61,753 nucleotides of DNA. Source: a virus. The notes under the pieces are model-generated. The model was not told the DNA's origin and did no database searches. It saw only the letters and a program-made list of their open reading frames with translations. The stretch is taken from positions 1 to 61,753 of IMG/VR virus record IMGVR_UViG_3300044643_000906; one strand, given 5' to 3'. Below are positions 661-61,753 of this stretch, piece after piece (the first letter of the stretch is position 1; each line of letters starts with the position of its first letter). The translations under genes and the position numbers were made by a program.

Positions 661-2202
661 ATGGACAATGTGAACGACGAGACGCGGATGAAGGTGGCGA
701 AGTTTCGCACCAGCTGCAAGGCGGTCGTGCCCTACCTCACTCAGACAATCTACGGGCTGATCCCCGTGCGTGCCCCGGGCTGCAAGACGATGGCGGTTGA
801 TCAGTATGGTCGGCTCTACTACGACCCGTCCTACGTCAACCGCGTCACGCCTGAGACGGGGCGATGGACGATCCTGCACGAGGTGCTGCATGTGGTGCTC
901 GGCCACTGCCGCCTCGGCAAGCGTGTTCTGGGCGACAACCCCACGGCACAGATGTGCCTGCTGTGGAACATCGCCTGCGATATCGTGGTCAACCAGCTGC
1001 TCGATGCGTGGGGGCAGGATGCACCGGAAGGTGTCTACACCTACCAGCGCATGGGTTTCCCGCCCAAGCTGTCCGCGATTGAGTACTACCGCCTGCTCGT
1101 GCAGCAGGAGGAGGAGAAGCAGCAGCAGCGTGAGCAGCAGCAGGAGTCGGACGACTCGGAGTCGGACGACGAGCAGGACGAGGACGATTCCACCAGCGAG
1201 GAGGACGACGATGACGATCAGCAGCAGGGAGATGGAGATCGTGATGGGGATAGCGAGTCGGACGAACCCGGTGATGAGGAAGGCGAAGACGATGCGGAGT
1301 CCGGTGCTGGCTCCGACTCGGAGGACGGCGAGGAGGATGCATCATCCGACGGCGAAGCTGATGGCGACGAGGAAGATGGCGAGGCTGATGGTGCGGGTGG
1401 CGAGGGCGGGGATGGCGAGGAGAGCGGAGATCAGTCTGGTGATGGCGGGGATGCGGAGCCAGTAGAGGGTGCCGGTGGAAGCGGTGCCGACGGCCAGCCC
1501 CGCAGCTACGAACTCCCGCCCGACGCGGGTCACGCCGACCGCGAGTACTCGATGGTGAGTGAGCTTGAGAAAGCCATCGAGGAGCAGGAGGCTAAGGCTC
1601 CGGGCTCAGTCCCCGGGGAACTGAAGGCGGCGGTCGAGTTCAAGCTGCGACCGCAGCCCGACCCCTTCGATGTGCTGCGTGCAGCAGTGGCACGGGCAGT
1701 GGCAACACCGCTCGGGTCACCCGACTACACGTTCCGCCGCCTGTCCCGCAGGCAGGGTGATCCCAATGGGCCGCGTCTGCGTGGCATCAAGAAGGAGATG
1801 CCCAACGTGGTGGTGCTGCTCGACACGAGCGGCTCGATGGGGTGGGGCTATGACCATGACCTCACCACTCGGGCACTCGACTGCATCGCCAAGGGGGTGC
1901 GTCGGTTGCAGTCAGTGCGTGTGATCTGCGGTGACGCAGCACTGCATAACGATCAGGTCGTGCGGTCGGTCGGCCGCATGAAGATCGAGGGTGGTGGCGG
2001 CACCGACATGGGACAGCTGATCGAGCAGCTGGACAAGGAGGTGCGGCCGGATGCCATCCTCGTGGTGACAGACCTTGAGACAGCGTGGTGTGACAAGCCG
2101 CGGGCGAAGGTGGTGATCGCTGGTGTCAAGGCACCGTGCGATTACTACCCCGTCCCGGCATGGGCAAAGTTCGTAGACCTAACCAAGAAGGGAGGTGGTT
2201 GA
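661..2202 (+). CDS. Putative metallopeptidase with C-terminal VWA domain (DUF2201-like), MoxR partner
   Basis: This 513-aa protein has the two-domain layout of DUF2201/VWA-like proteins, which pair with MoxR AAA+ ATPases. Residues about 1-145 carry a zinc-peptidase-like motif HEVLH (73-77) with a further His at 82 and Asp at 107. Residues about 150-330 are an extremely acidic, low-complexity linker (runs of D, E, S, Q, G). Residues about 335-513 form a VWA domain with a complete MIDAS: DTSGS at 388-392 and the Thr at 448 in GGGGTD. The start has a good ribosome binding site (AAGGAG). It lies immediately after its ATPase. By analogy with the family it would be a metal-dependent co-chaperone or protease remodelled by the ATPase; the target is unknown. 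Confidence 0.88.
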   Translation: MDNVNDETRMKVAKFRTSCKAVVPYLTQTIYGLIPVRAPGCKTMAVDQYGRLYYDPSYVNRVTPETGRWTILHEVLHVVLGHCRLGKRVLGDNPTAQMCLLWNIACDIVVNQLLDAWGQDAPEGVYTYQRMGFPPKLSAIEYYRLLVQQEEEKQQQREQQQESDDSESDDEQDEDDSTSEEDDDDDQQQGDGDRDGDSESDEPGDEEGEDDAESGAGSDSEDGEEDASSDGEADGDEEDGEADGAGGEGGDGEESGDQSGDGGDAEPVEGAGGSGADGQPRSYELPPDAGHADREYSMVSELEKAIEEQEAKAPGSVPGELKAAVEFKLRPQPDPFDVLRAAVARAVATPLGSPDYTFRRLSRRQGDPNGPRLRGIKKEMPNVVVLLDTSGSMGWGYDHDLTTRALDCIAKGVRRLQSVRVICGDAALHNDQVVRSVGRMKIEGGGGTDMGQLIEQLDKEVRPDAILVVTDLETAWCDKPRAKVVIAGVKAPCDYYPVPAWAKFVDLTKKGGG

Positions 2203-3504: not shown

Positions 3505-3579
3505 ATGGAACTCATACTGTCTTGTATCTTCTTCGGCGTGGTCTGGGCGGTTCTCATCGGCAACGAAAGCACTAAGTGA
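3505..3579 (+). CDS. Small membrane peptide, 24 aa
   Basis: An ATG at 3505 opens a 24-codon frame whose first 17 residues are strongly hydrophobic (one short membrane span) and whose last residues are polar. Its TGA (3577-3579) lies just before the ribosome binding site of the serine recombinase, so it fills the only gap between two genes. A GGGGTGG stretch could serve as its binding site. The GTGGATAATGG at its start resembles the end of the 36-bp promoter-like element found elsewhere in this genome, so part of this stretch may be regulatory instead. Confidence 0.4.
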   Translation: MELILSCIFFGVVWAVLIGNESTK

Positions 3580-3590
3580 AAGGACGTTAC

Positions 3591-4364
3591 ATGCAGGTCT
3601 TTATGTACGGTCGGCACTCGACCGCGAAGCAGAGTGCTACGGAGGATGTCCAGAAGGAAGCGTGCGAGCGGCACTTCAAGCTGACGCTCAAGCCCAAGGG
3701 GGCCACGCTTGCGGGCTGGTTCTATGACGCAGCCGTGTCGGGCAGCAAGGGATTCGCTGACCGACCAGCTGGCGTGCAGGTCTGGGTGTCGGCTCGGAGG
3801 GGGGACTACATCGTGGTCAGCCACCTCGACCGGGCGTTCCGCTCGCTGATCGATGGGGCCAACTGCATCGAGGGACTCAAGCATCGGGGCGTGCATTTCG
3901 TCGCACTCGATCTCGGGCTCGACACATCAACCCCGATGGGTGAGTTCGCCCTGCACATCTTCCTCGCTGCTGCCCAGATGCAGCGGAGGTACATCGCGGA
4001 GCGAACGAGGGAGGTGATCCAGCACAAGCTGGCGATGGGCAAGCCGCACGCTGGGCAGAGGACAGGGGCACCCATCGGCTGGCGTCAGTCGGGGCTGGGC
4101 TGGATCGAGGCACCCGACGAAAGGGAGCAGGTCGAGAAGCTGTGTGTCATGCGTGACTCGGGCATGAGCCCGGCCCGCATCGAGCAGATGATCAACAAGC
4201 CAGACCTGCGTAGTCAGTTCGTCCGACGGTACGCGGTGAGCAAGAGGTGGACGCCACGCTACATCCGGCTGGCGTTCAGGGCTCGTGATCTGGGGTATCC
4301 AAAGTGCTTCCTAAACTCTCGCTCACGCAAGCCGAAAGCTGATCATACGCCTGCGTCAGCCTAG
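3591..4364 (+). CDS. Serine recombinase (resolvase/invertase family)
   Basis: This 257-aa serine recombinase cuts and rejoins DNA through a covalent serine link. Its N-terminal catalytic domain shows YGRHS with the expected nucleophilic Ser close to an Arg (residues about 6-10), a YDAAVSG segment, SHLDRAFRS with the conserved Asp/Arg pair, and TPMGEF, a hallmark of the resolvase fold. The C-terminal part (about 170-257) is basic and probably DNA-binding. It is too short for a large serine integrase, so resolution, inversion or a small integrase role are the options. The ATG at 3591 follows AAAGGA; the GTG at 3576 overlaps that site. Its end overlaps the sigma gene on the other strand by 89 bp. 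Confidence 0.88.
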   Translation: MQVFMYGRHSTAKQSATEDVQKEACERHFKLTLKPKGATLAGWFYDAAVSGSKGFADRPAGVQVWVSARRGDYIVVSHLDRAFRSLIDGANCIEGLKHRGVHFVALDLGLDTSTPMGEFALHIFLAAAQMQRRYIAERTREVIQHKLAMGKPHAGQRTGAPIGWRQSGLGWIEAPDEREQVEKLCVMRDSGMSPARIEQMINKPDLRSQFVRRYAVSKRWTPRYIRLAFRARDLGYPKCFLNSRSRKPKADHTPASA

Positions 4365-25513: not shown

Positions 25514-25945
25514 TCAGGGCCTTGCGTCGGGGTACTTAGAGCCCCGGTAAATGGCTAGTTTCAACAGCTTCTTCCCGGCGAACGGGACGTATGGCAGTGA
25601 GCGTTTCCCAGCCTCCTCGGCCAGCCAGCCCTTCTCCCCGGCGATTAGCTCCTCGTTCTCCCTGCACCACTGGAGGCCCTTGTCATCCATAGTTCGGGCC
25701 CGAGCGTTACATCGGCAGGTCGGACTGCTCGTGATCCCAATCAGTTTCAATAGCCCCTTCATCGCCGTGCCAGCGCCCGGGGGCGGTAGTTCCGCGTCGG
25801 GCCGCGGATGGGGGTAGTGCGGGCTCGCGGGATCGATAGTCCACAGATCGCCATCCTGATGGACGACGCTGGGCATAACGTCCTCCAGCTTGTAGCCCCT
25901 CTCAGAGCAGCGGGCGATGAGGTGTCGCTTATCGCAGGTGATCAT
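25514..25945 (-). CDS. Conserved phage-type protein with CxC-containing motif, 143 aa
   Basis: The N-terminus MITCDKRHLIARCSERGY and the central PTCRCNARARTMDDKGLQWC are reminiscent of a conserved hypothetical family I recall from environmental phages and planctomycete genomes. The paired Cys (CDK, ARC, CRC, QWC) suggest a metal-binding or disulphide-bonded fold. The ATG at 25945 overlaps the stop of the cysteine-repeat gene (ATGA); the frame extends upstream only as a shadow. Function is unknown, but coupling to the cysteine-rich tail protein suggests a joint role. Confidence 0.65.
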   Translation of the reverse strand: MITCDKRHLIARCSERGYKLEDVMPSVVHQDGDLWTIDPASPHYPHPRPDAELPPPGAGTAMKGLLKLIGITSSPTCRCNARARTMDDKGLQWCRENEELIAGEKGWLAEEAGKRSLPYVPFAGKKLLKLAIYRGSKYPDARP

Positions 25946-27933
25946 GGGAGTGGGTTCCCGTCGCGGGCCGAGCCAAACGTGATGCGGCACATTCCGGGCG
26001 TGACGCCTATGTTTCTCCAAAAACTCCGCTGCGTTTGGAGTGCCTTGGGGCCAGCTGTTGTGTTGGTTCCGAAAGTCCAACCATCCCGATACGGAGGCAG
26101 AGCCACGCCGTCGCGGTTCCGGCTCCAGAATCCGTTCACGCACTCCGAATCGCCGCTGACTGTATAAAGTCCCAAGTAGGCGTAGTCGCATCCGTTGGAA
26201 TCGAATTCGGTGCCTCGCGTGAGTTCCAGATCATGCTGCGGCCACCCAGAAGGAAGTGTCAGCGTGCCTTTCCAGACAATCGCGCTAGGGAGCAAGAAGT
26301 CCAGAAGCTGAAGTTCGACGGTCTGGTTGAAGACAGCCGCGTACCCACTCTGTGGCACACCCGTGTCCGCATCTGGTAGGCAGTCCGGCAGAGGGGAGCG
26401 GTCAACGAATCCGCACAGGGCGACTGTGACTTTAGTCGGAACCGACTCGCCGCAGCCCTGCGGCAGGCACGCACCCTCACAAAGTGCGGGCGTGTCATAT
26501 AGCGTTACGCCATCTGGGCACGGCGAATCGACAGCGAGGCAGTTCCCGCTCGCGCAGCACTTCTTGCAGGTCTGGTTCTCGCAGTAGTACTTGTACACGG
26601 GCGGATTGCAGACGGGCTCGCACTCGGAAGTCTTGCCGTATGGGCCCGACTCCTTGTTGACGTTCTCGTTCACGCAGGTGGCAGGAAGTAGCGGGCCTTC
26701 GCAAATCCGGTTGTCACAGTTCTCGGCAGGCTGATCGCGTGGGCAGTTGTAAAGAAGATACCACTCGCCGTTCGGCTGCTGAGACAGATCGGTGTCGAAC
26801 CCTGCCTCCTTGAAAGCCTGCTCCTCGGCCCTTGCCCGCTCCTCTTCTAATGGGCTGAAGATAATCATTGGCTGCCCAAGGCATGAGTACGATGCCGTGC
26901 AGCCGTCTGGCGAATCCTCCTGACAGACCTTCACCGTGCTGTACGGAGTGGTGATGTCGTTGTAAGACCAGCAGTAGATTCTGTGGCAGTCATCCTCGCA
27001 CGCCTTCTTGTCATCGTGCGGGCCAGACCGCTCAAACCCCGGATCACATTCGCCTAGCTGGCAGTACGATCCCCGCGTCGGATCGCCCTGAGAAACCCAG
27101 CAGCAGTAGTAGTTGTCGCACTCGTCATCGCAAGCAGCCTGTGAGGAATACGCCGGGGCACCGGGGGCAGGCGGCGAGGCCAGCTGCTGGCAGGGATCGC
27201 CCGGCGTAACGCAGTACCATTTCTCGGGCAGGCAGTCGGCCACGCACTCGTCATATGTGCCGTGCTCCTCGCAGAACACTCCGAACGAGCACTCCGGCGG
27301 CGGGCCGTCATAGCTGATCACGCACCGTTTATTATCAACGCACCAGATGGTACGGCGTCGTGTCGAGCAGGAAGACTCGCAGAGAGCCAGCGCGGTCGGG
27401 CCGGAGATAACCAGATGCCCCGTGGGGTCGATCACGCATGCGTAGTGCTCAGGCTGCGAACCGTCGAACCCGTTCAGCAAGACGCAGTAGTACAGCGACT
27501 CGCACTCCGCATCGCATTCGGGCTTGTCTTTGTACGGGCCGGAGCGAACAAGTCCCTCGTCGGGCCCCTTACCCTGCTGGCAGGCAGACCCCTTCGTGTA
27601 GTCGGCGCTCTTGTAGACGCAGTACCACGCATAGTCCTTCGGGCAATTCTCCTCGCACGCGGACTTCGAAGGGTAGGAAGCAATCGCGTCAGTTGGGTCG
27701 GTATCGCACTCGTAATCAACATGGCAGAAATGCTCGACCCGGTCTTCGCACAGGCGCAGGCACTCAGCCTGCGTGGCGTGCTCCGAGATGTGCCCCGGCT
27801 CGTTCTGGTCGCATGTGTAGTCGGGAAGATGGCAGTACCACTTCGCGCAACAGGCGTCCGCGCACCCGGCGACGAAAGCCTTGAGAGCACCGCCGATTGA
27901 GGCGAGCAAGCCGTCTTTAACGAGAAGTGGCAT
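25942..27933 (-). CDS. Cysteine-repeat virion protein, 663 aa
   Basis: By my count this protein has about 59 cysteines, nearly all in residues 24-480. They form about ten tandem modules: an aromatic-Cys start (WYC, YYC or IYC), one or two spaced Cys, then a C-terminal Cys-x3-Cys pair with acidic residues (CEENC, CDAEC, CDDEC, CEDDC), often after SGPY. The last about 180 residues form a different, beta-rich domain with few Cys. The modules look like disulphide-knotted domains of extracellular proteins. It lies between tail genes, so a tail appendage or host-surface adhesin is likely. I know no named family for it. Confidence 0.75.
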   Translation of the reverse strand: MPLLVKDGLLASIGGALKAFVAGCADACCAKWYCHLPDYTCDQNEPGHISEHATQAECLRLCEDRVEHFCHVDYECDTDPTDAIASYPSKSACEENCPKDYAWYCVYKSADYTKGSACQQGKGPDEGLVRSGPYKDKPECDAECESLYYCVLLNGFDGSQPEHYACVIDPTGHLVISGPTALALCESSCSTRRRTIWCVDNKRCVISYDGPPPECSFGVFCEEHGTYDECVADCLPEKWYCVTPGDPCQQLASPPAPGAPAYSSQAACDDECDNYYCCWVSQGDPTRGSYCQLGECDPGFERSGPHDDKKACEDDCHRIYCWSYNDITTPYSTVKVCQEDSPDGCTASYSCLGQPMIIFSPLEEERARAEEQAFKEAGFDTDLSQQPNGEWYLLYNCPRDQPAENCDNRICEGPLLPATCVNENVNKESGPYGKTSECEPVCNPPVYKYYCENQTCKKCCASGNCLAVDSPCPDGVTLYDTPALCEGACLPQGCGESVPTKVTVALCGFVDRSPLPDCLPDADTGVPQSGYAAVFNQTVELQLLDFLLPSAIVWKGTLTLPSGWPQHDLELTRGTEFDSNGCDYAYLGLYTVSGDSECVNGFWSRNRDGVALPPYRDGWTFGTNTTAGPKALQTQRSFWRNIGVTPGMCRITFGSARDGNPLP

Positions 27934-28745
27934 CAGCCCCCCGCTTCGCAGTCAGCTACTGGGATGGAGAAGATAATCTCGGTCGCAGCTGGAGGGGAGC
28001 CAAGGTAATAGACGATGTCGCCGCCAAAGTTTAGCTGTCCTTTAGTCAGCGTACCGCTGTTAGCGACCTCGACCCGCTCAAAAGGGATAGAGGCGTCTGA
28101 GCGGCTGTCCACCCATGCGTCTAGCCGGGCGGTAGTGATCCGCAACTCGCGGGAGTCCAGCGTTATGCCGGTCACCACTTCGATCTTCTCGGTGGGCTTG
28201 ACGCGAAGCACCCACTCCCGATCAATGAAGTCGCCCTCTTCGGTGAATCGGGCCAAGTCCCAATCGGACTTAACCTTGATGCTGCCGCCGACGATTCGAT
28301 CCGTATCGAGAATCGCCACCCCTGAGCGAGACGCGAGAACGGAGATCATGCCATTGCGAATCTCGATGTACCGTCCTGCTACATACTGCCCGTCACCATA
28401 CCCAGACACCGGCTGTTGATGAGGCTCGCTAGGACGTGGGTTCTGGGGTTCCTCCCACGGCTCGGGCTCAGGAAAAATCTCCTCTTCGGGCGTGTTGCTC
28501 TTTGGCCCACGACGCTCGCCCTCCGAACTACGGAAGTCGAAGTTAGGGAACTGATACTTGCGTAGCTCGGGCGACACTAGCCGCAGGTTAGGCGACGTGT
28601 AGTCGAGAGTGGTTGGCCCACGCCAGCGTCGAGGCGTGGCGCAGTGGAGTATGGCAGCTGTGGCGGCGTTCGCGGCAAGCGGGTTAACGCCACCCTGCAC
28701 AAGTGCCTGCTCAAATACGCCTGCCCTGCGGTCGGGTATCGACAT
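27933..28745 (-). CDS. Putative tail protein, 270 aa
   Basis: Residues about 75-115 are a Pro/Glu-rich linker; the C-terminal half (about 115-270) is beta-rich and could be a structural tail domain. No family is recognised. It is coupled by one-base overlap to the cysteine-repeat gene and follows the nozzle-like gene, which suggests a tail or appendage role. Confidence 0.65.
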   Translation of the reverse strand: MSIPDRRAGVFEQALVQGGVNPLAANAATAAILHCATPRRWRGPTTLDYTSPNLRLVSPELRKYQFPNFDFRSSEGERRGPKSNTPEEEIFPEPEPWEEPQNPRPSEPHQQPVSGYGDGQYVAGRYIEIRNGMISVLASRSGVAILDTDRIVGGSIKVKSDWDLARFTEEGDFIDREWVLRVKPTEKIEVVTGITLDSRELRITTARLDAWVDSRSDASIPFERVEVANSGTLTKGQLNFGGDIVYYLGSPPAATEIIFSIPVADCEAGG

Positions 28746-28747
28746 GC

Positions 28748-31168
28748 TTACCCCCTCGGGCTCGGGACACCGTAGATGTCCAGCTGGTGAATCGCCACCG
28801 GGCCGGAGTCCCCAGCAGCACCGGAGAGTTCCAGAGCGACGTGACGGTCGTTACCCCGGAGGTCATCGATGGTCTTACCGGCGAACAGGGCGCGGCACAC
28901 GCCAGAGGAGATGTTCTCGTGGAGCGTCCCGGCGTCCATGTCAACCCGGGTCACAGGCTCAGTGGTGTCGTGTATGAACCCCGTGCCGCGGTCGCGTTCT
29001 ACGATGTTGACCCTCGGGTGCGGGCTGTTGTTGTAGTACATCCTGAGCTTCAGGAGGCTCTCGCCCTGAGTGGGCGTGAAGAGCACAGAGATGTTTCGAG
29101 CACCTCCATCCGGCAGGCCGTCGGTTGCCATTGAGTCGCTCGGGTACTCAAGGTTCCCGGTCTTGAAGAGGTACGGTATCGGGAGAAAGTCGTCGGATAT
29201 GAAGTACTCTGCCACGGCGGGGGTGCCGTTCTCCGGTGGCTCGATCACCAGCTGCCCGCTTGAGTATCCGTAGCCGGGGATGCGGACGTAGATGCCGAGC
29301 AGCTGCCCGTCTGCGGTGATTGCACTCTCCAGCACCGCCCCACACCCACCGGGTGCAGTGACCTTGGGAGGCTTGGTGTACCCGCTGCCGTAATTCTGTA
29401 TTGCAACACTTGCTATCCCGCCGTCCGACTTGTCCACATTTCCGGTGTTCAGCTGATAAGCCTTACCGGACGACGAGCCGTAGACGACACGACGCTGTCC
29501 GTTAGGCAGTACTACGGCAGCTGCTCCCACGAGCGGGGCAGGGTATCGCTCTTCCCACCATGCCGATGTCTGGAACGAGTAGACCAGCATCCGCGTTGGG
29601 TAGTCTCCGGGGCCGTCACCGATGAATCGCACAGAGCACCGCAGGAGGTACTCGGCAGGATCGGCCACAACGCTAAACCACTTCGACTTCGTGAAGTCGA
29701 TCCGGCTCGTGAACAAGTCTGCCACCCCGTCGGTGATCGACTTGATCTGCCCGCCGTAGTCCATCGTGTAGACGCCCTGAGCGTCCATGGAATACAGCAT
29801 GCCGTCGATCTCGTCCCAGCATCTCTGGTTGAGACAGCCGCGGTAACCGCCGACCGATACGTTCACGTCGATCAAAGGCTGTGCGACATAGGTGACGCGA
29901 TAGAAGTGCCGACTCTGAAACACGCCGAGCGTGCCGCCGTAGGGGACAAGGGCGGTGATCGAGTCTGCACCCTTGACGTTCGTCTGGATCAGCAGTTCGT
30001 TGATGTCTGGCATCGACTCCGGCTCGTCTACCTCGGAGTACTGAAGCGCGTTCGGACGCATGCCGGATGGATCGACAGCACACCACAGCCGGTCTTGGAA
30101 CGTGACGGCTACGGCGAAGTCGCTGGGAGGAATGCCGAATCGGTTGGCGTTGAGTTCACCGTTCGGCAGGATCACGGGCAGTCCTAGATACCCCGGTCGG
30201 TTGTAGTCGCGAAGCTCTTCGTCAGTGAGCGTGTCTTCGTCAGTCTCCCCGCTTACTCGGTAGAGCGTGAAGGACTGATTGGAAGTTGTGCGCCACCGTT
30301 CCAGCGTCAGGCCCTTGGCCTTGGCGGCAGCGGCTGCGGCCGAGTACCCAGACCACAGCAGCTTCTCTGCTCCATCTCCAGCGTCCAGTACGCAGACAGG
30401 AGAGAGATTTGAAACGCGAGGCCCACCCCGCGACTCAGGCGTGTCGTCAACGTATCGGTAGTAGCACTCATACTGACCGCGAACGTGGCAGCGTGCGATA
30501 GCCACTGCCGTGGCCCCGCCTTGAATGGGCGTGACTGTGGGAGGAGATGCGTAGCCGCTGCCCGGCTCGACAACAGATACGGCCGTGACCTTGCCACCAG
30601 CCACTGTCGCCTTAGCGGTCATTCCAGAGCCAGTGGTCGATGATACCGACAGCTTAGGCGGCGTCAGGTACTGCACCCCGGGGTTCACGATTGTGATGCT
30701 CTTGACCGGCACGGGAACTATCGCGGCAGGGCCACGCTCCGGCGGCGTGGCTGGCTGATCCTCCAGTACCGCCTCTAGCTCTAGCCCCTTGGCGTGCGAT
30801 TCAGAGAGATGCACGGCGGGCGTCTCGGCATACCCCTTGCCGTAGTCGCTCATGCGAATCTCGTCCAGCTGACCGTCTCGCAGGAACGCACGAGCCTTGG
30901 CCGGTCGCTCGCATGCACCGACGATGTCTACCGTGGGCGGCGTGTGATAGAGGTAGCCGAACTCGACAACGTCGATGCGCGGTATGTAGTACTTCTTCGC
31001 GCCCTGAGCCGTCACGACGGGGGCAGCGGTCGGGGCGTCCAGACCAGCTGGCACGATATCGCCAGTGCGTAGGTCAATCCGGTCGGGCCTGCCTTTGCCG
31101 TGATAGACGTATGCATACCCGTGAGGGCCGAGAGCTACCGTGGCTGGTGTGTTGGCTGGAACCGGCAT
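28748..31168 (-). CDS. Tail nozzle-like protein (tail tubular protein B type), 806 aa
   Basis: Size, beta-rich composition and position right after the adaptor and a small protein match the podovirus nozzle. It contains a recurring motif of the form GxGYxxPPxV (PGSGYASPPTVTP, YGSGYTKPPKVTAP, and weaker YGKGYAETPAV, PGVQYLTPPKL, PGYGYSSGQLV), beta-hairpin repeats known in environmental phage tail proteins. A central region (YNRPGYLGLPVILP, FQDRLWCAVDPSG) resembles nozzle proteins. ATG at 31168 has GAGGGG 8 nt upstream. Assignment is from context and pattern. Confidence 0.7.
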   Translation of the reverse strand: MPVPANTPATVALGPHGYAYVYHGKGRPDRIDLRTGDIVPAGLDAPTAAPVVTAQGAKKYYIPRIDVVEFGYLYHTPPTVDIVGACERPAKARAFLRDGQLDEIRMSDYGKGYAETPAVHLSESHAKGLELEAVLEDQPATPPERGPAAIVPVPVKSITIVNPGVQYLTPPKLSVSSTTGSGMTAKATVAGGKVTAVSVVEPGSGYASPPTVTPIQGGATAVAIARCHVRGQYECYYRYVDDTPESRGGPRVSNLSPVCVLDAGDGAEKLLWSGYSAAAAAAKAKGLTLERWRTTSNQSFTLYRVSGETDEDTLTDEELRDYNRPGYLGLPVILPNGELNANRFGIPPSDFAVAVTFQDRLWCAVDPSGMRPNALQYSEVDEPESMPDINELLIQTNVKGADSITALVPYGGTLGVFQSRHFYRVTYVAQPLIDVNVSVGGYRGCLNQRCWDEIDGMLYSMDAQGVYTMDYGGQIKSITDGVADLFTSRIDFTKSKWFSVVADPAEYLLRCSVRFIGDGPGDYPTRMLVYSFQTSAWWEERYPAPLVGAAAVVLPNGQRRVVYGSSSGKAYQLNTGNVDKSDGGIASVAIQNYGSGYTKPPKVTAPGGCGAVLESAITADGQLLGIYVRIPGYGYSSGQLVIEPPENGTPAVAEYFISDDFLPIPYLFKTGNLEYPSDSMATDGLPDGGARNISVLFTPTQGESLLKLRMYYNNSPHPRVNIVERDRGTGFIHDTTEPVTRVDMDAGTLHENISSGVCRALFAGKTIDDLRGNDRHVALELSGAAGDSGPVAIHQLDIYGVPSPRG

Positions 31169-31201
31169 GAGGATCACCCCTCGGAGTAGATGGGGACGAC
31201 G

Positions 31202-31497: not shown

Positions 31498-32454
31498 TCA
31501 GGTGCCCCCGTCAGGCCCCATCGAATAGCCGCTGCCCGCATACGGAGCACTCGGGGTATCCGGGTTGGCGTTGTACGGAGCACGACGGCCAGACATGGGG
31601 GCGATAACGTCCTGCTCCATCGCCAGCTTGATATCCCGCTGGTACATGGTCGCAGCACCATCGACGTTCTTGCCCATCAGCCGTGCCAGCCAAAGCTCAC
31701 TGCCCGTGAGGACGGCGGTGAACATGTTTGGGGACACGTCGAGGTGATCCGAGATCACATACCGACAGTCGGTGTACACACCCGCCAGCGGAAGCTCCAG
31801 CGTCAGGGCATCGCCCTCGGTGCGAGACTCGATCTTCGACTGCTCGGCGTATGGGTACATGCCCGACAGGGGCTCGGGGTAGTTGCCCGGGGTGCCGATG
31901 CGGAAGATGGCACCGGCACATCGCAGCGGGAAGTTAGTGTTCTTGCCTGTCACCGCAGTACCGGCGACAGTGGCATAGCCGGTGCGGCACTGTGTTTCGT
32001 ACCCCATCAGCGTCAGCGGCTTCGGGCGACGGCGGTAGGTATATCGCAGCGTCGTCCCGGCCTTGGCCTGACCGGCGATGCGAATCTCCCAGCGGTCAAA
32101 CGTCTTCGGGTCTTGAGACTTCAAGACAGTCCAGTAGACGGGCTCGCCCAGAGTCAGGCTGCTCTGCTCCAGCTTCATCCACTCAGCTGGCGAGATGTAG
32201 GACGTGATCGTTGTGTTGTCGGGGCTGACGAGAGCGTCTACGTTGCTGCAATCTTCAGGCAGCAGGTAGGTGTTCTGCCCATCGACAGTGACGATGGTCG
32301 ATTCGGTGACGTACCACAGCCAATCCTTGGCGTTCGATACGTCACGATAGGAGTGATGCACGGCTGCCCGGAGAGCGCGATGCTCCTGATCCTGAGCGCC
32401 GCCGCCCGTGGACTGCATCAAATAGTCAATGGCGTCATGCGCTGTGTAGTACAA
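31498..32454 (-). CDS. Head-tail adaptor-like protein (podovirus gp11/TTPA type), 318 aa
   Basis: The N-terminus (YYTAHDAIDYLMQSTG..., HHSYRDVSNAKDWLWYV) is the helical start typical of phage adaptor proteins such as T7 gp11: a helical region followed by YTYRRRPKPL and a beta domain. Its position between fibre-type genes and the nozzle-like gene supports it. It would form the ring below the portal. Assignment is by motif and gene order. Confidence 0.7.
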   Translation of the reverse strand: MYYTAHDAIDYLMQSTGGGAQDQEHRALRAAVHHSYRDVSNAKDWLWYVTESTIVTVDGQNTYLLPEDCSNVDALVSPDNTTITSYISPAEWMKLEQSSLTLGEPVYWTVLKSQDPKTFDRWEIRIAGQAKAGTTLRYTYRRRPKPLTLMGYETQCRTGYATVAGTAVTGKNTNFPLRCAGAIFRIGTPGNYPEPLSGMYPYAEQSKIESRTEGDALTLELPLAGVYTDCRYVISDHLDVSPNMFTAVLTGSELWLARLMGKNVDGAATMYQRDIKLAMEQDVIAPMSGRRAPYNANPDTPSAPYAGSGYSMGPDGGT

Positions 32455-58480: not shown

Positions 58481-58779
58481 GCACGGGCAACTTCAACCTG
58501 ACATGGGTGCGGCGTGTGATCCCCAACCTCTGCAAGCGTGGAGCACGGGGACGCACGCTGCTCGTCGCCAGCGTGGGCAGGGGTGCGGTCTATCGCGTGA
58601 GGGAGGTGCCATTCCGCGGGTGGTGTGCGGAGCGGCACGAGGAGGGGTCGAACTGCGTGGTCGGATGCAAGGTGTTCGCCAAGCAGGCCGACGCACAGCA
58701 GTGGTGCAGGGAGGATGCGTTCGTCTTCCTGCTGGAGCGGTCGAACTTCTACGCCTTGATGGAAGGGGGTGACGAGTGA
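58477..58779 (+). CDS. Hypothetical Cys-containing protein, 100 aa
   Basis: The protein is basic with several Cys (VIPNLCKRGARGRTLL, GWCAERHEEGSNCVVGCKV, AQQWCRED). No clear zinc motif is visible. Coupled by ATGA overlap to the TGT-like gene, so it may be a partner of that enzyme. Confidence 0.6.
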   Translation: MSTGNFNLTWVRRVIPNLCKRGARGRTLLVASVGRGAVYRVREVPFRGWCAERHEEGSNCVVGCKVFAKQADAQQWCREDAFVFLLERSNFYALMEGGDE

Positions 58780-59609
58780 AGAAGCGGACTGTGTTCGGGT
58801 TGCCTCTCAACCCTGCCCACCTGCTCGACCAGCTGGATGGGCACTCGTTCTGCGTCAGCTACTACCACCGCTCCAAGCTGGGGCGGCAGTTGCAGCAGGC
58901 CATCAGTCTGGTTGGCGACGACCAGCTGCTCATGGTGGACAACGGAGCGTTCAGTGCGTGGCGTTCGGGCAAGGCGCTGGATGAGCAGCATTGGGATGCG
59001 TTCGCCCGATGGGGCATCCGCATCCTCGACGCCTGCCCGCAGGCAGTGCTCGTTATCCCCGACGTGATCGGCGGGTCAGTCGAGCAGAACCACCAGCTGG
59101 CGTGCGAGTTCACCGCTGGTCTGTCGGTGGTCTACGGGCGGGCTGATCTGGTGGATCGATGCATGATGGTCTGGCACATGCACGAACCCATCGATCACCT
59201 GCTTGGCATGATCGAGGGCGGCTACCAGTGGATAGCCGTGGGTAGCAGCGGTGAGTACGCCAAGGTGGGCACGCCTGCATGGCACGCCCGCATCCGCGAG
59301 GCGTTCGCTGCGATGGATGAGTTGTGCTGCGAGGGCAGCGGGTATCGGAGGCCGTGGATGCACCTCATGCGGGGGCAGTCCATGTTCCACCTCTACCCCT
59401 TCGATAGCTGCGACTCATGCAACGTGGCGGTGAACCACAACACATGGCGGCGGGTCAACCCCGGCGAGAACCATGTGGCACGCATGGCGGGTGGCATCAA
59501 GCGGCGGGCGGATGCCAGCTGCAACAGGTTGGATCGGGTCGAGAGTCCAGCTGCGTTGGCTGGGCTCGTCGGTGGGTGGTGGTCTGCACACAGAGGAGGT
59601 GCTGCATGA
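58776..59609 (+). CDS. TGT/DpdA-like guanine transglycosylase-fold protein, 277 aa
   Basis: Four motifs match tRNA-guanine transglycosylase positions in order: DNGAF (55-59; TGT DSGGF, general acid/base), IPDVIGG (Asp 96; the second Asp), an AVGSSGEYAKVG segment (substrate-binding loop) and YPFDSCDSCN (Asp 210; the nucleophile position in FDC-x-PTR). This suits the DpdA group that puts 7-deazaguanines in DNA. There is no C-terminal zinc site and no precursor-synthesis genes are visible, so it would need host precursor. I name it by motif alignment only. Confidence 0.7.
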   Translation: MKKRTVFGLPLNPAHLLDQLDGHSFCVSYYHRSKLGRQLQQAISLVGDDQLLMVDNGAFSAWRSGKALDEQHWDAFARWGIRILDACPQAVLVIPDVIGGSVEQNHQLACEFTAGLSVVYGRADLVDRCMMVWHMHEPIDHLLGMIEGGYQWIAVGSSGEYAKVGTPAWHARIREAFAAMDELCCEGSGYRRPWMHLMRGQSMFHLYPFDSCDSCNVAVNHNTWRRVNPGENHVARMAGGIKRRADASCNRLDRVESPAALAGLVGGWWSAHRGGAA

Positions 59610-61007: not shown

Positions 61008-61064
61008 ACGGCTGATTGATTCTGTGTGCTGCGTCGGGGCAGGCCGGGTGTTCCGGCCTGCCCC
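61005..61064 (+). promoter_or_regulatory. Motif plus 12-bp hairpin before the MoxR ATPase gene
   Basis: TGAACGGCTGATTGATTCTG (61005-61024) is a full motif. GGGGCAGGCCGG (61036-61047) and its complement (61053-61064) form a perfect 12-bp stem with a 5-nt loop, followed by TGTTCTTTC, a T-rich tail that would fit a weak terminator. The AAGGAG site of the ATPase follows. Confidence 0.6.
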
Positions 61065-61098
61065 TGTTCTTTCACGGTTCTTCAAGGAGATGATTCCA

Positions 61099-61753
61099 AT
61101 GGTTGCTTTCAATGCGTTCGCCAACGTCAACGCTGCGTTCTTCATTGCCTTGCAGGCCCGCGTGCCTGCCCTCGCCCGGGGTCTGCCGGGTACTGGCAAG
61201 TCCACCATCATGGCGGCACTCGCCGCTGCGATGGGCCGTCGGTTCGTCGCACTGATCGGTAGTCAGTGTGCCCCGGAGGATTTCGGTGGCATGCCGGTGC
61301 CCGACCTGAAGGCGAAGCTCTGCCGCCTCATGCCTGCCGAGTGGGTCGAGGCGTTCCTCACCCCGGGTGGTCTGCTCTTCCTCGATGAGATCACCGCCGT
61401 GTCCCCGTCAGTGCGGGCTGCCCTGCTCACGCTCATCACTGAGCGTCACGTCGGCAGCGTTCACCTCGACCACGACACGCTGATGGCAGCGGCCTGCAAC
61501 CCAGAGGAACTGTGCCCTAATGGCACGCCGCTGGAACTGGCGATGAACAATCGGTTTTACCACCACGAGTGGAAGGTGGAGCGGGAGGAGTGGCTCGACG
61601 GCATGGCGACCGGGCAGTGGGCGGCTCCCACTTTCCCGCTCGTGCCGTCCGATTGGGAGTCGATGATCCCCAAGTGGGGCGGCAGGTTCTCTGCCTTCCT
61701 GCGTCGGGCCGACGGGCTGGACAACGTCCCGCCCTCCGATGAGAGCCGGGCCT
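61099..61753 (+). CDS. MoxR-type AAA+ ATPase, N-terminal part (continues at 1-588)
   Basis: Walker A GLPGTGKST (residues 28-36, Lys 34), Walker B LLFLDEI (Asp 96, Glu 97), a sensor-1 Asn at 134 in AACNPEE, and NNRF (a likely arginine finger area) give a complete MoxR-group AAA+ ATPase. ATG at 61099 has AAGGAG upstream; the ATG at 61090 overlaps that site. The total length with the wrapped part is about 371 aa. It remodels protein complexes together with a VWA protein, which is the next gene (661-2202). Target unknown. Confidence 0.92.
   Translation, partial: MVAFNAFANVNAAFFIALQARVPALARGLPGTGKSTIMAALAAAMGRRFVALIGSQCAPEDFGGMPVPDLKAKLCRLMPAEWVEAFLTPGGLLFLDEITAVSPSVRAALLTLITERHVGSVHLDHDTLMAAACNPEELCPNGTPLELAMNNRFYHHEWKVEREEWLDGMATGQWAAPTFPLVPSDWESMIPKWGGRFSAFLRRADGLDNVPPSDESRA

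Follow-up and report, generated by a model that had tools for sequence, protein, structure and literature searches.

The window analysed here is the stretch of 61,753 nucleotides spanning positions 1 to 61,753 of IMG/VR virus record IMGVR_UViG_3300044643_000906. An identical 127-bp repeat is present at both record ends (1–127 and 61627–61753), so the genome record is probably complete. Its minus-strand virion operon includes the genes listed here, of which the Cys-rich one is referred to below as the slot gene and its overlapping neighbor as the partner gene.

25514..25945, minus strand: 143-aa partner gene, with an ATGA overlap with the slot gene and an invariant CxC
25942..27933, minus strand: slot gene, for a modular Cys-rich protein of 663 aa and 59 Cys
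27933..28745, minus strand: 270-aa gene upstream of the slot gene, in an order kept in podovirus-type relatives
28748..31177, minus strand: 809-aa virion structural protein, probably the tail nozzle (phrog_701, 460, 3287)
31498..32454, minus strand: SU10-type adaptor protein (PF24175, 34.2 bits against a cut-off of 27)

The exact Cys count bears out the figure of about 59 given for this reading frame by the original prediction. PHROG and Pfam matches together with synteny among relatives locate the slot gene inside the tail gene block, and the virion-operon setting proposed earlier is upheld by that synteny, by the SU10-type adaptor and by the PHROG virion structural protein. The operon also holds a terminase (PF03237), a capsid gene matching a podovirus model slightly under the cut-off, and a weak SU10-type portal match; the closest isolate-phage terminases, from Arthrobacter or unnamed phages, are at most 27% identical. 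The nozzle-like protein (28748–31177, minus strand) contains GxGYxxPP repeats that match virion structural and baseplate proteins of cyanophages. Cysteine makes up 8.9% of the slot protein as against 0–1.6% in the other examined virion-operon genes, the 143-aa partner excepted (3.5%), and six neighbors of the slot gene, including those for the 1280-, 833- and 1239-aa proteins, encode none. The slot protein contains 11 C-x3-C pairs; shuffling the whole sequence at constant composition leaves 5.2 ± 2.1.

A module profile was built from seven relatives (L005, L006, L007, L016, L017, L071 and L101), with the window and L002, its closest relative, left aside. This profile matched the 663-aa protein in ten segments with 39.7 bits. 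The best of 300 full shuffles reached 6.6 bits, the best of 300 shuffles with Cys positions kept reached −6.3 bits, and the reversed protein gave no match. The segments span residues 31–63, 67–98, 102–145, 147–190, 197–235, 238–273, 274–317, 321–355, 417–443 and 448–490. In the alignment with L002, segments 321–355 and 417–443 prove to be halves of a single module, interrupted by roughly 80 inserted residues. The protein thus contains nine modules, the eighth split, instead of the roughly ten repeats counted earlier. The description of the protein as built of repeats applies to residues 31–490; residues 491–663 form a separate Cys-poor domain without repeats, exchangeable among relatives and ending in an NPLP tail. 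The parts of the protein are as follows.

27844..27933, minus strand: N-terminal segment, aa 1–30 (MPLLVKDGLLASIGGALKAFVAGCADACCA), a putative anchor; many slot proteins start in a related way (M-x-L..GKLL..GG.LA..CxCC)
27745..27843, minus strand: module 1, 4 Cys, aa 31–63 (module profile)
27640..27735, minus strand: module 2, 4 Cys, aa 67–98 (module profile)
27499..27630, minus strand: module 3, 4 Cys, aa 102–145 (module profile, i-E 1e-11)
27364..27495, minus strand: module 4, 4 Cys, aa 147–190 (module profile)
27229..27348, minus strand: module 5, 6 Cys with an additional pair within the loop, aa 196–235 (module profile)
27115..27222, minus strand: module 6, 4 Cys, aa 238–273 (module profile)
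26983..27114, minus strand: module 7, 6 Cys, YYCC type, aa 274–317 (module profile; AlphaFold model, pLDDT 84.5)
26605..26979, minus strand: module 8, aa 319–443, split by an insert at about aa 345–423 that is absent from L002 (module profile, L002 alignment)
26464..26592, minus strand: module 9, 8 Cys, aa 448–490 (module profile)
25957..26463, minus strand: exchangeable non-repeat C-terminal domain, aa 491–659, about 42% identical to aa 135–294 of the L020 slot protein
25945..25956, minus strand: C-terminal NPLP tetrapeptide, kept across slot proteins with freely varying synonymous codons

The minimal module consists of an aromatic-C pair, 5–17 residues, a Cys, a loop that often includes G-P-Y, and a closing C-x3-C, and some modules carry a CC doublet and one further Cys on top of this pattern. 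The aromatic-Cys start was thus correctly described from the outset, and the closing pair, described then as acidic, is often but not always so (CEENC, CDAEC, CDDEC and CEDDC, otherwise CLRLC, CESSC and CEGAC). DNA tandem repeats were looked for and none were found, which argues that the modules are old and rules out recent expansion as their origin.

The Cys count is even in 55 of 57 unique modules, parity being broken by L071 modules with 5 Cys. An additional internal Cys is present in every one of the 18 modules with a CC doublet and is missing from 35 of the 39 without it (Fisher p 2.4e-11, a nominal value since the modules are related to one another). Even numbers and paired gain and loss are what disulfides predict and a pattern that metal sites would not give, and this indicates that the module Cys pair up as disulfides. 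It also makes it very improbable that the slot protein is an intracellular zinc- or iron-sulfur-binding protein, such as an assembly scaffold, in which the Cys coordinate metal. Synthesis in the cytoplasm, the invariant CxC of the partner, and a partner gene in L009 (13289–13735, plus strand) in which a zinc-ribbon-like domain with a weak DUF6171 match replaces the C-terminal domain would all suit a metal-binding role, but Cys that come and go in pairs to give 4, 6 or 8 per module, with aromatic-Cys and CxxxC spacing and hardly any His, fit it poorly.

A model of module 7 obtained with AlphaFold2 from a 64-row module alignment (pLDDT 84.5) has a β-β-β-α fold with the C-x3-C on the helix. A Foldseek search with this model gave no match at E below 1, and VIA-align against 28 chains gave a best Z of 2.6; the MbtH-like, TTLL6 and three-finger toxin folds considered as relatives are weak and unrelated matches with Z of 2.6 or less, and were rejected. 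In size, Cys density and repeat arrangement the modules resemble eukaryotic knottins and Kunitz, EGF and chitin-binding domains, but they have no profile or sequence match to these and the fold matches are equally weak (Z 2.6 or less). The label cysteine-knot-like is best narrowed: the repeats are of the disulfide type, and the units are predicted β-β-β-α modules with 4 or 6 Cys, and 8 in one case. Sequence searches of Pfam, PHROG, NCBIfam and PDB with the whole protein and with single modules returned nothing usable, and so no known family with a function outside the virion was matched. Judged from these sequence comparisons, the module family is real and is absent from every library searched. 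The full-length AlphaFold model is poor (pLDDT 50, pTM 0.24), with a low-confidence helix at residues 16–29, and leaves the stalk geometry discussed below without structural support.

The ATG of the 143-aa partner starts at 25945 and the TGA of the slot gene occupies 25944–25942. The partner has 5 Cys, and both Cys of its CxC are invariant in 21 relatives, so the earlier description of the next gene as translationally coupled and equipped with paired cysteines was accurate. It comprises an N-terminal segment (MI.C..HL.ARC.ERGYT..EVMPCVV) and a C-terminal domain (GTELK...GI..SPTCxCNARA..MD..G..WC), has no homology to chaperones, and matches no family found. L103, L118 and L140 have, in the matching operon position, one gene that joins the slot body to the partner C-terminal domain; gene fusion is a classical sign that two proteins act together. 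As a fusion with a glycosyltransferase (PF04488, above the cut-off), the C-terminal CxC domain is also present in L097 (11261–12070, plus strand), which marks it as a mobile attachment domain.

Searches with three query proteins (663, 809 and 143 aa, the last being the partner) yielded approximately 140 viral loci. The slot genes of L002/L003, L005, L006 and L007 encode 71–93 Cys and all share the same gene order, which in L002/L003 reads adaptor, 97-aa, nozzle-like, 270-aa, slot, 143-aa, 138-aa, 192-aa, 134-aa and 1280-aa; L005, L006 and L007 show it over the length that their contigs cover, and L020, L071 and others have most of it. With a profile of the partner, 88 relatives were detected and 80 loci retained; across distinct contigs the gene directly upstream of the partner is usually Cys-rich, with a CxCC-like start and an ATGA overlap with the partner. 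By sequence, then, the cassette spans dozens of uncultivated phages and consists of a Cys-rich gene with a GKLL..G..LA..CxCC-like start and an NPLP end, followed by the 143-aa partner. The 61 listed slot genes have a median of 256 aa (range 47–887, the shortest a partial gene) and 8.3% Cys; this list was filtered by the last four residues, includes near-duplicate contigs and at least one false inclusion (L118), and offers no fair denominator for the frequency of NPLP. In eight loci (L034, L038, L042, L045, L050, L060, L073 and L075) two tandem Cys-rich genes lie upstream of the partner, the first starting like MTLATKNGSLIVKDGKIAENCGCCGGWYCC and the second MPCYQ...YTTEADCLQACKEGACC, and these resemble a module split over two genes.

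The tail order around the slot gene is like that of SU10/T7-type podoviruses, in that adaptor (with its SU10 domain above the cut-off) and nozzle-like genes precede it. In isolate phages, by contrast, tblastn found no counterpart of the Cys-rich gene or the partner: 50,697 phage records were queried with two partner proteins and with the Cys-rich proteins of the window and L006, without a match. A search of PLSDB with the L034 partner protein found no match, and a literature search found no description of the slot-partner cassette within the library that it covered. Scans of GTDB contigs with partner and nozzle profiles for a prophage or host detected no cellular relative; no evidence was found for the mimicry of a host surface protein that had been suggested originally. 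A second phage type (L083, L068, L038, L051 and L076) carries the slot-partner pair downstream of Cys-free ORFs, about 760–1880 aa long, that look like tape measures from their size and position; in L083 and L038, those checked, a phrog_704 exonuclease follows the pair. The cassette therefore crosses tail types. Several of these contigs and their relatives have two Cys-rich genes in tandem. One side observation may bear on the host: between the tail fiber genes of L002 (2140–2865, plus strand) lies a secreted-looking protein with a PEP-CTERM-like end (VPEIDPAS...RRQR) and no match in Pfam or NCBIfam.

Both ends of the slot proteins are conserved. Exactly NPLP ends 46 upstream genes and the window protein, and in the 46 relatives its Pro codons (CCA 16, CCG 16, CCC 9, CCT 5) and Leu codons (CTC 25, CTG 11, CTT 8, CTA 2) vary freely; NPLP is also kept in L002, which has no ATGA overlap. 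Selection on the peptide itself is thus indicated, and its origin as a by-product of the ATGA overlap is ruled out. The bodies between these ends are mosaic. L005 and L006 are 91% identical in the 270-aa gene and 94% in the partner, and their slot proteins are 94% identical over the first 300 residues and 24% over the last 150. The window C-terminal domain reappears, with approximately 42% identity (E 1.5e-29), at the end of the L020 slot protein, which is module-free and otherwise unrelated, whereas L003, a closer relative than L020, carries a different C-terminus. Residues 64–308 of L037 and 17–263 of L049 are a common body of 245 residues, 97% identical, behind different N-termini, and the slot proteins of L034, L038, L066 and L073 have blocks in common in different combinations. 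These C-terminal swaps and common bodies under different ends mark the slot as a site of domain exchange.

Such hypervariability would suit an arms race, and small disulfide-rich modules are typical of secreted proteins, as might be expected if the slot protein were a late-made non-virion factor released on lysis or placed at the host surface (for superinfection exclusion, or toxin-like or protease-inhibitor-like). A lipobox-like VAGC (residues 21–24) in the window protein and IASC in L005 point the same way. A lipoprotein signal was rejected, as the motif is not conserved among slot proteins, and the N-terminal segment of most relatives has charged residues mid-segment (MTLATKNGSLIVKDGKIAENCGCC and alike) and is no signal peptide. 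Together with the constant position among the tail genes of both phage types, this leaves a non-virion factor improbable.

On the basis of synteny alone we infer that the slot protein is located in the virion. A place in the virion operon and a disulfide signature would equally be expected of a stabilizing or decoration protein of the tail coat, neck or head, whose modules harden the particle and whose variation reflects drift instead of receptor choice. Virion disulfide networks have a precedent in Agrobacterium phage Milano, whose structural proteins contain 2.1% Cys with disulfides mapped, many of them inter-subunit bonds in the sheath and baseplate (PMC10811340). Milano resembles the present case in its many virion-protein Cys and shows that virion disulfides form and matter (PMC10811340); the slot protein differs in having 8.9% Cys in one repeat protein, with bonds that would be intra-module. 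C-terminal swaps between near-identical flanks and mosaic bodies of about 130–887 aa fit a fixed lattice badly, and we regard a decoration protein as rather unlikely.

The repeats, the covarying even Cys counts, the conserved ends, domain exchange, gene order and slot-partner fusions favor an appendage, and the slot protein is most likely a disulfide-stiffened, exchangeable virion adhesin with a dedicated partner. That it is an exchangeable phage-particle appendage, most likely contacting the host surface, has about an even chance of being correct. Constant plugs would be formed by the short segment at the N-terminus and by NPLP at the C-terminus, and the nine β-β-β-α modules, with two to four disulfides each, would form a stiff, protease-resistant stalk, in keeping with the rigid appendage suggested originally, which is plausible. 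Residues 491–659 would be the working tip that is exchanged, and the 143-aa protein, co-translated with the slot protein, would be a dedicated partner, either an adaptor or an assembly factor, attaching to the constant end of any slot body. We infer disulfide bonding, virion location, the stalk-and-tip layout and the partner role. Phage proteins fold within a reducing cytoplasm, and a scan of window ORFs with CxxC for oxidoreductase families matched none, which counts against an appendage of this kind; the module disulfides would form after lysis, in oxidizing surroundings.

The nearest parallel among known systems is provided by Alteromonas phages A5 and V22, for which two reports describe modules of a tail fiber and its cognate tail-fiber chaperone (PMC10579305, PMC7289586). 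In both kinds of cassette a small partner gene comes after a body that can be exchanged, and both are common to distantly related phages, and the fiber-chaperone cassette also crosses tail types (PMC10579305). They differ in that the slot body is made of disulfide-type modules with a conserved C-terminal NPLP and the slot partner matches no family; in the slot cassette, moreover, the partner is the conserved element and the body is not. A conserved N-terminal segment with an exchangeable C-terminal domain is a tail-fiber-type architecture, and the slot cassette probably works like a tail-fiber and partner cassette, though the slot protein matched none of the known fiber or spike families in Pfam, PHROG and NCBIfam. 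Conservation of NPLP after the variable domain is odd for a tail fiber and counts against the appendage reading. The tip of a tail fiber is normally free. Tail-fiber-like genes with collagen-type repeats are present elsewhere in the same genome, and the slot protein need not be the receptor-binding one.

More tentatively, the cassette could be an undescribed host-contact device of many uncultivated phages with at least two tail types, in which a mosaic slot protein of disulfide modules carries interchangeable tips and its NPLP tag is recognized, oxidized or installed by the CxC partner. New tips would then be acceptable without change to the rest of the particle. If the appendage reading is right, environmental phages carry a modular attachment system of disulfide mini-domains, hardly known in phage particles; the CxCC start, NPLP end and partner gene would be a searchable signature for host-recognition genes in phages without isolates, and the modules a natural set of small stable scaffolds.

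Several other genes in the window were recorded. A serine recombinase or DNA invertase-like gene is present at 3576–4364 on the plus strand (phrog_125, E 1e-34), and no obvious inverted repeats flank the Cys-rich gene. A putative DUF2201/VWA-like metallopeptidase (661–2202, plus strand) and an ATPase (61024–61753, plus strand; phrog_1297) adjoin across the terminal-repeat join and resemble an ATPase-VWA pair. A queuine tRNA-ribosyltransferase-like gene (58776–59609, plus strand; phrog_887) suggests deazaguanine modification of RNA or DNA.
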